Source: Candidatus Cloacimonadota bacterium (GTDB taxonomy: Bacteria > Cloacimonadota > Cloacimonadia > JGIOTU-2). Taken from it: a stretch of DNA of 14,486 nt. Numbering within the stretch: the stretch's first letter is position 1; each line of letters opens with the position of its first letter. Location: the NCBI GenBank assembly GCA_021158425.1, contig JAGGUR010000148.1, positions 1 through 14,486 on the forward strand. The letters run 5' to 3'. A program made the translations under genes and the position numbers. The notes beneath the pieces are model-generated. The model searched no databases and was not told the origin of the DNA. It was given only the letters and a program-made list of their open reading frames with translations. Below are positions 946-12,311 of this stretch, in pieces.

Positions 946-1402
946 TCCAAAGGTTCCACCTCCACATCCGCTGGGCTTGGTGAAAAAGCCAATATTTTCA
1001 TGGGTTTCATTCCCTCTCATTGAATTTCCGATACATTCCATATTTGTTTCTGCATTCTTTATACTTGTAGCCATCTTTGTTTTTACAATCACCCATAATC
1101 TCTTCTGGGTGATATTATCACTATTTTTTCTTTTCTCTTCCCTGTTTTCCTATTTTGTGCCTACATACTACGAATTTTATGAAGACTATGTATTCATAAA
1201 AGTTCTTGTTTTTAAACGTGAACGTAAATACTCAGAATTCAAATGTTTTTATGCTGACAAAAAGGGTGTAATGCTTAGTACTTTTGGTAAACCACGAGGA
1301 CTTGATAGATTCAGAGGTCAGTCTATTAGATTTACAAAAAAGCAAAAAGAAAGAGAAGATGTGCTGAACTTCCTTGATGAAAAGATAGGAAACCGTTACT
1401 AA
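935..1402 (+). CDS. Small membrane protein with two TM helices and a PH-like cytoplasmic tail
   Basis: Function not recognised. The 155-residue protein has a proline-rich start (PPPHPLG, residues 8-14), two hydrophobic helices at about 34-52 and 55-75 separated by a very short turn, and a soluble tail (80-155) with alternating strands, a basic GKPRGLDRFRG segment and a final helix. TM pair followed by strand-rich tail and C-terminal helix resembles bacterial PH-domain (bPH/YdbT-like) membrane proteins; this is inference from pattern only. The start is supported by TAAGGAA ten bases before an ATG that lies inside the last codons of yicC. The stop TAA overlaps the rnr start as TAATG. The double overlap implies co-translation with two ribonuclease genes, so a role tethering or regulating RNA turnover at the membrane is possible but unproven. 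Confidence 0.8.
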   Translation: MLSSPKVPPPHPLGLVKKPIFSWVSFPLIEFPIHSIFVSAFFILVAIFVFTITHNLFWVILSLFFLFSSLFSYFVPTYYEFYEDYVFIKVLVFKRERKYSEFKCFYADKKGVMLSTFGKPRGLDRFRGQSIRFTKKQKEREDVLNFLDEKIGNRY

Positions 1403-3591
1403 TGACTAACAAAGACAAGTCTGAAGAAGTGATTCTTAATTTCCTTCATAAAAATGCAAACAAAGAATTCACAATTAGAAAATTAGCGAGAATATTCAGA
1501 ATTAAAAAGCGAAATTATTCAAACTTTAAAAAGCTCATACTTCAACTAACAAAGAAAGCCAAAATTCGTAGAAAAGGCAAAAAGTATTACTCTACACCTG
1601 TTTACAATACAATTGAAGGCATTTTTGATGCGTCAGCTCTTGCAAAAAACTATCCGTTTGCTTTTGTAAGAACTGATAAAGAAGACATTAAAATATACCT
1701 TGAGGATTGTCTAAATGCCTATCACAATGATACTGTTGAATTGGTTGTTACAAAGCGCAATCATCGTGGAGCAACCGGAAAGATCCTGAAGATTATCAAG
1801 CGAAAAAATGAAACGATAATTGGAAATACATATAAATTAAATGGTAAGTTATTTGTAATTCCTGATAATCAAAAAATTGATAATCATATTGAATTAATCA
1901 ATTTAAAAATAGACCAGAATGAATTTTTAGAAAAAAAGGTTATGGTGCGGATAACAGATTGGGGAAATAGGGAAAAAGATACATATCCAAAAGGTAAAAT
2001 AACTGAGATATTAGGAAATGCAAACGACCCCAATATTGATTTTCTGTCAGTATTAAAGCAATACAATCTTCCAAGAGAGTTCAAGCGAGATATTACTGAT
2101 GAATCGCTGAAGTTACAAGAATATATCGACAAACTGGAAATTAGAAGAAGAAAAAACTTTGTAGATATAACAACATTTACAATTGACCCTATAACAGCAA
2201 AAGATTTTGATGATGCAATTTCCTTGGAAGAAATAGAAACTGGATATAAGCTCTATATTCACATTGCTGATGTTTCTCATTATGTTAAAGTTGAATCCCC
2301 TATCTTTAAAGAGGCATTTAATAGAGGTACAAGTGTTTACTTACTTCAAAAAGTGATACCAATGCTCCCATCAAATCTGAGCAATAATATCTGCAGTTTG
2401 CAACCTGGCAAGGATAGACTTGCTATTTCTGTAATAATAGAATATGATAAAAACTTTAACCAAATTAAAGGGGAAATTTATCCTTCTATAATTCGGAGTG
2501 ATGCTCGACTTAATTATCAGCAAGTTGATAAATTTTTTGAAGGCAGTGATTTTTCGCCACAAAGACTCAAAGGCACTAAGAAAAATTATAACAAAAACAA
2601 AAATCATTCTTCGTGCCTTAGTGCCTTAGTGGCTAACTCTGAAATTGCGCCAGAAATCAAAGAAGTTTTATTAAAAATGCGACCTCTGGCAAAGCATTTG
2701 ACAGAATTGAGATACGCAAGAGGAGGACTGGATTTTGACCTGCCGGATTCTGAATTTGAATTTGATGAAAACGGAAGTCCGATAAATATCTTACGAACCA
2801 GGGAAACAGAGAGTCATCTCCTTATTGAAGAATTTATGCTTGCAGCAAATCAATATGTCGCAGAATTAATCGCAAAAAAGTGTAACTCAGCAATATTTCG
2901 CATTCATGAGAAACCTGACCCAGCCAAAATGGCCGAGTTCGCTTTGATAGTAAAATCATACAACTATAGCTTAAATTTTACTCAAAAAAATCAAAATCTA
3001 GCGCTGAAACAGTTTTTAAATTCTATCAAAAATGAAAACCATCATAGAGTTTTTGACAATTTGCTTTTACGAAGCCTTATGAAGGCAAAATATTCTTATA
3101 GAAACTTAGGTCACTTTGGGCTGGCTCTAAAATCTTATACCCATTTCACCTCCCCTATTAGAAGATTTCCTGATCTTGTTGTTCATCATCTTCTTAAACA
3201 AAATGTTTTTGGCTGGTCATCCACCAGATTTTCTCTCTCAGATATAAAGTCATTTGCACAAAAATCGTCAGAAATGGAACTCGTAGCAATGAATGCGGAA
3301 AGAACTTTAGGAAAATTGAAGAAGAATCGGTTTATGAAAGATAATATCGGAAAAGATTTTAAAGCTTTAATTGTAAATTTCAATAATAAAAATATCTTTA
3401 TTGAATTGGATAAATACCCAATTGAAGGCTTTATTCCCCTATCTTCTATAACCGATGATTATTATCAGTTTAATAACAATAAATATTGCATAATTGGAAA
3501 AGGGAGAAAACGTAGGTTCTTTTTATGCCAGCAAATCCAGGTAAAAGTCAAAAAAATAGAACACGAAATTGAGTTTGAGCTTATTAAATAG
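1402..3591 (+). CDS. rnr: Ribonuclease R, 3'-5' exoribonuclease (RNase II/RNB family)
   Basis: RNase R degrades structured RNA processively from the 3' end. Visible in order: an N-terminal winged-helix region (about 5-60, basic), cold-shock/OB-like region (about 65-230), RNB catalytic domain (about 245-600) and a C-terminal S1-like domain (about 645-725). The active-site motif DPITAKDFDDA runs from D262 to A272, giving metal-binding D262, D268, D270 and D271, and HFTSPIRRFPDL at 581-592 is the family signature near the active site. AGGAAA lies shortly before the start and the ATG overlaps the preceding stop. Oddity: residues about 385-411, between helix-forming segments in the middle of the RNB domain, come from a palindromic DNA repeat; E. 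coli RNase R has only a short linker there. The frame is kept and all catalytic motifs are intact, so the enzyme is probably active. Confidence 0.95.
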   Translation: MTNKDKSEEVILNFLHKNANKEFTIRKLARIFRIKKRNYSNFKKLILQLTKKAKIRRKGKKYYSTPVYNTIEGIFDASALAKNYPFAFVRTDKEDIKIYLEDCLNAYHNDTVELVVTKRNHRGATGKILKIIKRKNETIIGNTYKLNGKLFVIPDNQKIDNHIELINLKIDQNEFLEKKVMVRITDWGNREKDTYPKGKITEILGNANDPNIDFLSVLKQYNLPREFKRDITDESLKLQEYIDKLEIRRRKNFVDITTFTIDPITAKDFDDAISLEEIETGYKLYIHIADVSHYVKVESPIFKEAFNRGTSVYLLQKVIPMLPSNLSNNICSLQPGKDRLAISVIIEYDKNFNQIKGEIYPSIIRSDARLNYQQVDKFFEGSDFSPQRLKGTKKNYNKNKNHSSCLSALVANSEIAPEIKEVLLKMRPLAKHLTELRYARGGLDFDLPDSEFEFDENGSPINILRTRETESHLLIEEFMLAANQYVAELIAKKCNSAIFRIHEKPDPAKMAEFALIVKSYNYSLNFTQKNQNLALKQFLNSIKNENHHRVFDNLLLRSLMKAKYSYRNLGHFGLALKSYTHFTSPIRRFPDLVVHHLLKQNVFGWSSTRFSLSDIKSFAQKSSEMELVAMNAERTLGKLKKNRFMKDNIGKDFKALIVNFNNKNIFIELDKYPIEGFIPLSSITDDYYQFNNNKYCIIGKGRKRRFFLCQQIQVKVKKIEHEIEFELIK
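2556..2633. repeat. Palindromic repeat inserted in frame within rnr
   Basis: Arms of 25 bases at 2556-2580 and 2609-2633 are inverted copies of each other (20 of 25 match by eye), around a 28-base A-rich loop. Within the right arm the unit CCTTAGTG occurs twice, eight bases apart. The element is 78 bases, a multiple of three, contains no stop in the rnr frame, and encodes the basic stretch RLKGTKKNYNKNKNH plus flanks. The flanking protein aligns well with ordinary RNase R when these residues are removed. Similar CTTAGTGCCTTAGTGG-type palindromes are, from memory, common between genes in various uncultured bacteria; that needs a search. Confidence 0.85.
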
Positions 3592-4512: not shown

Positions 4513-4732
4513 TAATTAGTGTCTGTCCATAAACTCATTGTTTGTAGAACGACCTTTCCGTCTGGTCGCCGAGACTGACCAAGGTCGTTAAAGTAAATAG
4601 TTTTAAAATATGCCTTAAGAAAACGAGCTAAGAACCTCGTTCTACATTTACCCCGTTAGATAATTATATATAATATTTTAAAATATGATATAGAATAGCG
4701 ATCTAACGGGGTTTACGGACAAACACTAATTA
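4513..4732. mobile_element. 220-bp MITE-like non-coding element with 22-bp terminal inverted repeats
   Basis: The left end (TAATTAGTGTCTGTCCATAA..., 4513-4534) and right end (4711-4732) are inverted copies with 20 of 22 matches. Inside are further perfect inverted repeats: TGTAGAACGA/TCGTTCTACA (4543-4552 and 4637-4646), ACCCCGTTAGAT/ATCTAACGGGGT (4650-4661 and 4701-4712) and AACGAG/CTCGTT (4622-4641). No open reading frame of note and no transposase. The outer TAATTA is itself palindromic and could include a TA target duplication. The element fills most of the 334-base gap between the AhpD-like and gamma-carbonic-anhydrase genes. Size, terminal repeats and lack of coding match non-autonomous transposable elements; mobility itself is inferred. 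Confidence 0.75.
4548..4589. repeat. GC-rich hairpin repeat, copy B, nested in the 220-bp element
   Basis: Outer 9-bp perfect inverted repeat AACGACCTT/AAGGTCGTT (4548-4556, 4581-4589) with an inner GGTC/GACC pair. On the minus strand it reads GGTCAGTCTCGGC, then AGACGGAAAGG, shared with the copy at 12130-12190. Confidence 0.7.
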
Positions 4733-12105: not shown

Positions 12106-12129
12106 ATTTTCCAATTTATTTTACTGTAT

Positions 12130-12190
12130 CGGTCTCGGTCAGTCTTGGCGGGGCCAAGCCCCGACAGGCGCCCAGACGGAAAGGTTCGTC
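12130..12190. repeat. GC-rich hairpin repeat, copy C, between fabF and rnc
   Basis: Starts CGGTCTCGGTCAGTCTTGGC and ends AGACGGAAAGG. The middle holds a perfect stem CGGGGC/GCCCCG with a 3-base loop (12149-12163). The ends match the copies at 4073-4104 and 4548-4589, and the middle is copy-specific. It lies just upstream of the rnc start. Confidence 0.7.
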
Positions 12191-12311
12191 AACTAATAAT
12201 AAAGAGTATAATAATATTTTTAATTCTGAACCAATTTTATTGAGATTTGTTAAAGTTTTAAGAATATCTTTTCAATAATTTCTTAATATTTAAAGTAATC
12301 TGTGCCTATCT

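Follow-up and report, generated by a model that had tools for sequence, protein, structure and literature searches.

An in-frame palindrome of eight-base units in a Cloacimonadota RNase R gene and the dispersed family around it

Palindromic repeats in and between genes

The closest described counterparts of the repeat considered here are the RPEs, palindromic elements of Rickettsia and Wolbachia. In R. conorii, close to half of these elements lie in ORFs, according to the excerpted text of PMC10969869. Orthologous loci in different Rickettsia species hold different RPE groups (RPE-4/6/7), which has been read as a hotspot or as divergence (PMC3767692, excerpted part). The present locus resembles RPEs and WPEs in that a palindromic repeat sits in frame within a housekeeping gene, here rnr, and differing copies occupy one orthologous locus in related genomes, as in the excerpt of PMC3767692. 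As far as the excerpted sources reach, RPEs measure 100-150 bp, are often found in ORFs and have been described from Rickettsia and Wolbachia, whereas the rnr hairpin measures 78 bp and its family, called here the octamer-arm family, has one clear case within a gene among 121 sites of the genus and extends across phyla. The family is also periodic in eight bases, unlike RPEs, and it is these traits, not a sequence alignment, that set it apart. The original prediction had seen in the repeat a selfish palindrome of the RPE kind. Dispersal and in-frame insertion agree with this; the RPE habit of settling in genes does not. The rnr palindrome is RPE-like in effect, is not shown to be an RPE, and belongs to a chiefly intergenic, phage-associated, trans-phylum family.

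REPs are likewise short hairpins with many intergenic copies in several phyla, and CGTC REPs share with the octamer-arm family the lack of an evident dedicated transposase (excerpted text of PMC3733652). GTAG and CGTC REPs, as excerpted, have a tagged foot and a length of 20-40 bp, whereas the octamer-arm family has no consistent tag, is longer and consists of 8-base units. GTAG REPs pair with a RAYT, whereas no RAYT flanks octamer-arm copies in 30 loci. MITE, ERIC and RU elements are comparable as small non-autonomous inverted repeats with occasional in-frame fusion (PMC10969869, in part). In contrast to MITEs, the octamer-arm element is almost wholly arm plus loop, shows a weak 2-base flank excess only, and has no parental transposase found in the searches given below. 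The coding palindromes of Nematomorpha mitochondria are also translated inverted repeats in functional proteins, but their arms encode conserved protein, whereas the rnr palindrome forms an added, non-conserved loop (excerpted text of PMC6649704). In the cited papers, as excerpted, palindromic repeats go with a transposase, with tagged feet or with the Rickettsiales. Searches of the open-access literature by topic and by literal 15-base arm strings gave no description of the family, which does not prove its absence from print. Peptides resembling 'RHKGTK' presumably occur in environmental protein annotations.

The rnr hairpin and its counterparts in relatives

The window is the whole stretch of DNA that was analysed, 14,486 nucleotides long. 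Its features at rnr are the following.

1402..3591, plus strand: rnr, encoding RNase R (VacB/RNase II family, 729 aa), host of the insertion; from ORF and Pfam
2551..2634, plus strand: inserted 84 bp, residues 384-411 (FSPQRLKGTKKNYNKNKNHSSCLSALVA), predicted disordered loop; from alignment with relatives and AlphaFold2
2556..2633, no strand: imperfect palindrome (hairpin element) of 78 bp; from inverted repeat and folding
2556..2580, plus strand: 5' arm of the type GCCAC-N-AAG-R-CAC-N-AAG-R-CAC-N-AAG, with one core deviation, T at 2567
2581..2608, plus strand: A/T-rich loop, read in frame as KNYNKNKNH
2609..2633, plus strand: 3' arm of the type CTT-N-GTG-Y-CTT-N-GTG-Y-CTT-N-GTGGC

The RNase R ORF matches Pfam RNB at residues 250-601 (E 8.7e-108). 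The 78-base inverted repeat that the original prediction placed in this domain was recovered at exactly 2556-2633, within the ORF and in frame, a trait of RPEs. It consists of 25-base arms flanking a 28-base loop and ends in GCCAC...GTGGC. Folding of the region 2550-2640 as RNA yields -25 kcal/mol, where shuffled versions average -10.27 (z -5.20; equalled by 0 of 200 shuffles). All family traits, namely octamer arms, GCCAC/GTGGC ends and an A/T-rich loop, are present, and the one core base by which the 5' arm deviates places this copy outside exact full-pattern scans. The catalytic motifs, expected to be kept, are intact: Asp 262, 268, 270 and 271, which we take to be the catalytic residues, are invariant in 42 aligned RNase R sequences. 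An Rfam search of 2300-2900 with an E-value threshold gave six weak matches (miRNA, snoRNA, rox2) far under the gathering scores, and these were rejected as chance hairpins.

A search of the genomes of 58 relatives recovered RNase R from 52, and the close sequences with the most informative names are those of 'Candidatus Cloacimonetes' or 'Cloacimonadota'. Full-length matches are mostly split near residues 383 and 412, with one weaker unbroken match in G034, whose locus (L018) has a few other residues at the insert position. Alignment of 29 of the 52 RNase R-bearing relatives gave the clean gap that had been anticipated, a 28-residue segment being absent from all 29. DNA comparison with seven relatives sets the added length at 84 bp (2551-2634, residues 384-411), so that the in-frame addition stands and its size, first put at about 27 residues, is corrected to 28. 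The six outermost bases of the insert lie outside both arms, and there is no clear target duplication that accounts for them. Relative to its relatives the rnr segment is an insertion with a length that is a multiple of three and an open frame.

The protein modelled by AlphaFold2 from the 42-sequence alignment has a mean pLDDT of 89.1. Values below 50 occur only at residues 1-4 and 384-412, and the latter stretch sits between helices 372-381 and 417-440. The segment is therefore predicted as a disordered loop, in keeping with the linker position between helices first proposed for it.

Two close relatives, P0002 and P0003, retain the insert in frame with 28 and 30 residues, respectively. Outside the insert, the identity to the window is 651/700 in P0002 and 653/700 in P0003, and P0002 and P0003 form the closest pair of the three (664/700). 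Within it, P0002 shares 26/28 residues with the window and P0003 13/28, and the close pair agree with each other at only 13/28. The comparison was made on protein sequence, and the palindrome of P0003 is deduced from its amino acids: 8 of its 18 arm residues differ from the window, and 16 of the 18 still fit the hairpin DNA motif. After random single-base replacement of eight codons, a fit of at least 16/18 was reached in 17 of 40000 runs. In the simplest reading, the resident copy in P0003 would have been replaced by another member of the family, or re-inserted at the same site; selection on the DNA motif would be an alternative. Conserved amino acids from which the palindrome had vanished, the pattern named at the outset as telling against an inserted palindrome, were not seen, as the residues of P0003 are changed and yet fit the motif. 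The description of the segment as basic did not survive as a property of the insert, since the window insert carries a net charge of +6 and that of P0003 one of -1.

Distribution of the octamer-arm family

The arms of the family are built from the 8-base unit R-CAC-N-AAG, repeated and ending in GCCAC or GTGGC. The third arm unit shows the same consensus in 125 named copies, though it lay outside the search pattern, which also permitted the range of 54-84 bp that their lengths span. A 17-base arm pattern with one mismatch gave 44 matches in the 0.95-Mb bin that holds the window (G000) and 124 in the relative G001. Over 18 genomes (own and 17 relatives) there were 387 matches, overlapping ones counted, against 5 for the reversed control, and the pattern was absent from 3 of the 18. 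The arms thus recur across the own genome and its relatives, as the original prediction required, and the case of a repeat without further copies is excluded. Of 124 genomes in the phylum, just 4 contain the exact full palindrome; G000 is among these by way of a possibly stray contig (C136). The genus sites are mostly single arms, with both arms at 19/121.

This contig of G000 (C136, L008) and contig C14 of G017 (L056/L068) share 2.2 kb at 95.5% identity, including an identical palindrome, while their bins belong to different families; either bin may hold a stray contig. One octamer element carries a nested small GC-rich palindrome in each of two sister genomes, and in opposite arms (L081 at 1560-1960, L106 at 1719-2119), a sign of recent palindrome turnover.

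An exact full-palindrome scan of species genomes returned at least 118 stretches. Among the matches listed, the record titles of intact copies cover more than ten phyla, where we assigned the phylum of records titled with a lower rank from general knowledge. These titles, among the matches listed, include Desulfobacterota, other Deltaproteobacteria, Bacteroidota (with Balneolaceae and Ignavibacteria), Planctomycetota, Acidobacteriota, Aminicenantes, Nitrospirota, Nitrospinota, Calditrichaceae, Deferribacteres, FCPU426, Latescibacterota, Roseiflexaceae (Chloroflexota), Pseudomonadota, Cloacimonadota, and one Heimdallarchaeota contig. Most of the records are MAGs in which single-copy cases may be mis-binned, and the Heimdall genome has one copy. 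The complete chromosome of Desulfonema magnum holds 123 exact matches, many in tandem arrays; other isolates are Cnuella takakiae with 3 and Flavobacterium notoginsengisoli, F. aquidurense and Desulfobacter latus with 1 each. High-copy isolates such as D. magnum make hairpin movement accessible to experiment. One array of D. magnum (L189, 3300-3900) has an 87-base spacing with near-identical spacers, and further arrays exist in that genome.

The exact palindrome was also found on viral contigs, in 38 stretches on 28 contigs. Ten proteins from two of these contigs were tested. Those recognised are a portal, an S49-type maturation protease and a tail tube protein on L281, and a large terminase together with Mu F-like and Mu I-like proteins on L275. 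The palindromes sit in or at gaps between phage structural genes, which makes phages or prophages a plausible carrier. Selfish palindromes within proteins had been described at the outset as known from Rickettsia and few other groups; the octamer-arm family is not so confined, being present in more than ten phyla by title and on phage contigs. The same degenerate 8-base code in all of these points to a shared mover or to a phage-borne carrier. Four viral contigs (L281, L264, L275, L295) have up to four differing copies at gene gaps, with unusually mismatched arms.

The position of copies relative to genes was followed at 121 sites in four genomes of the genus (G000 26, G001 60, G002 22, G003 13), those of G001 being drawn from the 100 listed of its 124 arm matches. 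Five of the 121 fall inside crude gene calls. The rnr copy is the one clear internal case, and the other four lie toward the start of the called ORF. L080, L082 and L091 were rejected as in-gene copies because their arms read upstream of the likely start; in L304 of G002 (1440-1620), half an element may lie inside a gene, at the N-terminal end of the ORF as called. Among the 125 distinct named copies, tandem gaps hold 72, divergent ones 14 and convergent ones 10; a further 20 lie at the edges of their loci and 9 inside crude ORFs. The mix of gap types is similar to the background in these loci (245 tandem, 58 divergent, 44 convergent). Another round of crude ORF calls placed 12 of the 125 in ORFs, and Pfam on 7 of the 10 ORFs that overlap named copies gave one match, outside the element. 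As in-gene copies, L122, L131, L186, L198, L209 and L215 were set aside for having no Pfam match, L176 because its sole Pfam domain lies after the element, and L133 and L174 as shadow ORFs judged by eye; L114, L159 and L189 were left out of the Pfam check. No second clear internal copy besides rnr was found among the 121 genus sites. On average, 2.68 of the 6 frames are stop-free in 84 named copies, and if a third of lengths are multiples of three, some 15% of insertions at random into genes would stay open. Since almost no copies are located within genes, in-gene insertions are purged or avoided.

Single arms outside called genes show an orientation in the genus. The GTGGC end faces a gene start within 150 bp in 62 of 98 arms, 46 of these at 5-30 bp and 20 at exactly 14 bp from the ATG, and it faces a gene end in 12. 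No such preference is clear for intact named copies in tandem gaps, of which 39 are closer to a start and 33 to an end. Ahead of different genes in the genus, the arm often continues into GAAAGGATTTTCAG, identical or almost so, and then into ATG. This leader is identical at L074, L075, L090, L100, L317, L355 and L358, and near-identical at L319, L338 and L354. The pattern suggests that in this lineage arm and GAAAGGATTTTCAG make up a longer 5' leader that is repeated as a whole, and a leader for ribosome binding might thus have been dispersed in the genus.

Movement and rival explanations

Mobility of the octamer-arm palindromes is inferred from their dispersion. Flanking regions of up to 1.5 kb on each side were searched at 30 of the 54 listed PF01797 matches, from 10 genomes, for a link to RAYT; none was bracketed, and an arm with 2 mismatches allowed lay near 4 of the 30. 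When the 663 ORFs of 118 named loci were all compared with one another, no protein family lay beside more than 3 copies. The largest cluster spans 6 loci, 2 of them near an element, and three clusters have 3 members near elements, two of these coming from one shared locus of three related Flavobacteriaceae. This comparison covers the neighbours of the copies, and a parental transposon may lie elsewhere, unlinked to them. In the flanks of 125 copies, 2-base repeats occur 17 times against 10.0 expected and repeats of 3 to 6 bases at chance, and the flanks of the GCCAC/GTGGC feet carry no consistent tag, neither GTAG nor CGTC.

Pairing at the free positions of the arms depends on the set of copies taken. 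In the 125 named copies, N positions pair at 101/375 (105.5 expected, thus at chance) and the R positions 10 and 18 at 80/250 against 102.1 expected, as low in 1 of 1000 shuffles. Collapsing at 85% identity leaves 51 copies, in which the R deficit is much reduced (36/102 against 39.7) and N pairing rises to 57/153 against 43.0, as high in 6 of 1000 shuffles. The pairing shifts upon collapsing, and so no conserved mismatch pattern is claimed for cellular genomes. In the viral set, mismatches are pronounced, with N pairing at 10/165 against 42.2 expected, from few contigs and 11 copies after collapsing.

Taken together, the rnr segment is quite probably a non-autonomous, REP/MITE-like dispersed hairpin, a copy of which would have inserted into rnr in an ancestor of this Cloacimonadota species group and would later have been replaced in P0003, its peptide being tolerated cargo. 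Movement might proceed as single-stranded or cruciform DNA, with an enzyme acting in trans, and phages possibly ferry the hairpin between phyla. Its survival in rnr would be owed to a length, 84, that is divisible by three, to a frame free of stops and to a tolerant loop between the helices. In the P0003 lineage, a different family member may have taken the place of the resident copy through gene conversion or same-site re-insertion, and the peptide would have no selected function. What speaks against this explanation is that no mobilising enzyme was found at the 30 PF01797 loci or among the ORF neighbours of the 118 named loci, that the flanks show no clear target duplication, that the exact full palindrome is confined to 4 of 124 genomes in the phylum and that most sites of the genus have a single arm.

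The persistence of the motif in P0003 despite altered residues would also suit a hairpin kept for a role as nucleic acid, be it a structure in the rnr transcript through which translation or decay, perhaps by RNase R itself, is adjusted, or a DNA site that is bound. The gene-facing single arms of the genus, with their 14-bp spacing, and the copies near or between phage structural genes point the same way. We nevertheless consider such a role rather unlikely, as the free positions show no consistent co-variation in cellular genomes, intact named copies have no clear gene-start preference and the outgroups do without the insert. Less likely still is recruitment of the insert as a basic flexible arm that helps RNase R to bind RNA or partners. 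RNase R binds RNA, the loop lies within the RNB domain, and the window insert has its net charge of +6 and is nearly identical to that of P0002; on the other hand, the 30 residues of P0003 differ in composition and carry a net charge of -1, most of their changes follow the DNA motif, and the aligned relatives have no insert.

Arrival of a true Rickettsia- or Wolbachia-type RPE in Cloacimonadota is very improbable. An in-frame palindrome in a housekeeping gene would agree with it, as would the different RPE groups at the orthologous RPE-4/6/7 loci, much like P0003 against the window (PMC3767692, in part), but the element is shorter than 100-150 bp, almost never lies in genes and has arms periodic in eight bases, and no Rickettsia title occurs among the 118 matches listed. 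An assembly or binning artefact, or a chance palindrome, is the least credible of all. The genome is a 61.59% complete bin with the doubtful contig C136 mentioned above; yet insert-bearing RNase R recurs in P0002, with 4 member sequences and a longest contig of 12 kb, and in P0003, with 6 contigs of up to 143 kb. P0001 (9 member sequences, 2 contigs) has no stated source and might contain the record of the window itself. The frame is kept, and the arms match a dispersed family.

Returning to the inserted REP/MITE-like hairpin, the rnr case represents a hairpin turned protein part, with apparent replacement by a sister copy. A bolder proposal, which we put forward tentatively and with more doubt than confidence, is that a phage-carried, trans-phylum mobile hairpin of 8-base units, with three fixed bases and one free, might still turn over in rnr and rewrite a loop of RNase R by copy exchange instead of point mutation.

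Other repeats are present in the window. At 4513-4732 there is an element of about 220 bp with 22-nt inverted ends of the TTAGTGTCTGTCCATAAAC type that are 91% complementary; with 4 matches of its end in G000 and 17 in G001, it looks like a second dispersed palindromic family. A third repeat, of the CCGTCTGGTCGCCGAGAC type, lies at 4537-4597 and 12120-12200 in mutually inverted copies, the latter broken by a small GC-rich palindrome, and has 7 matches in G000, 38 in G001, 20 in G002 and 2 in G003.
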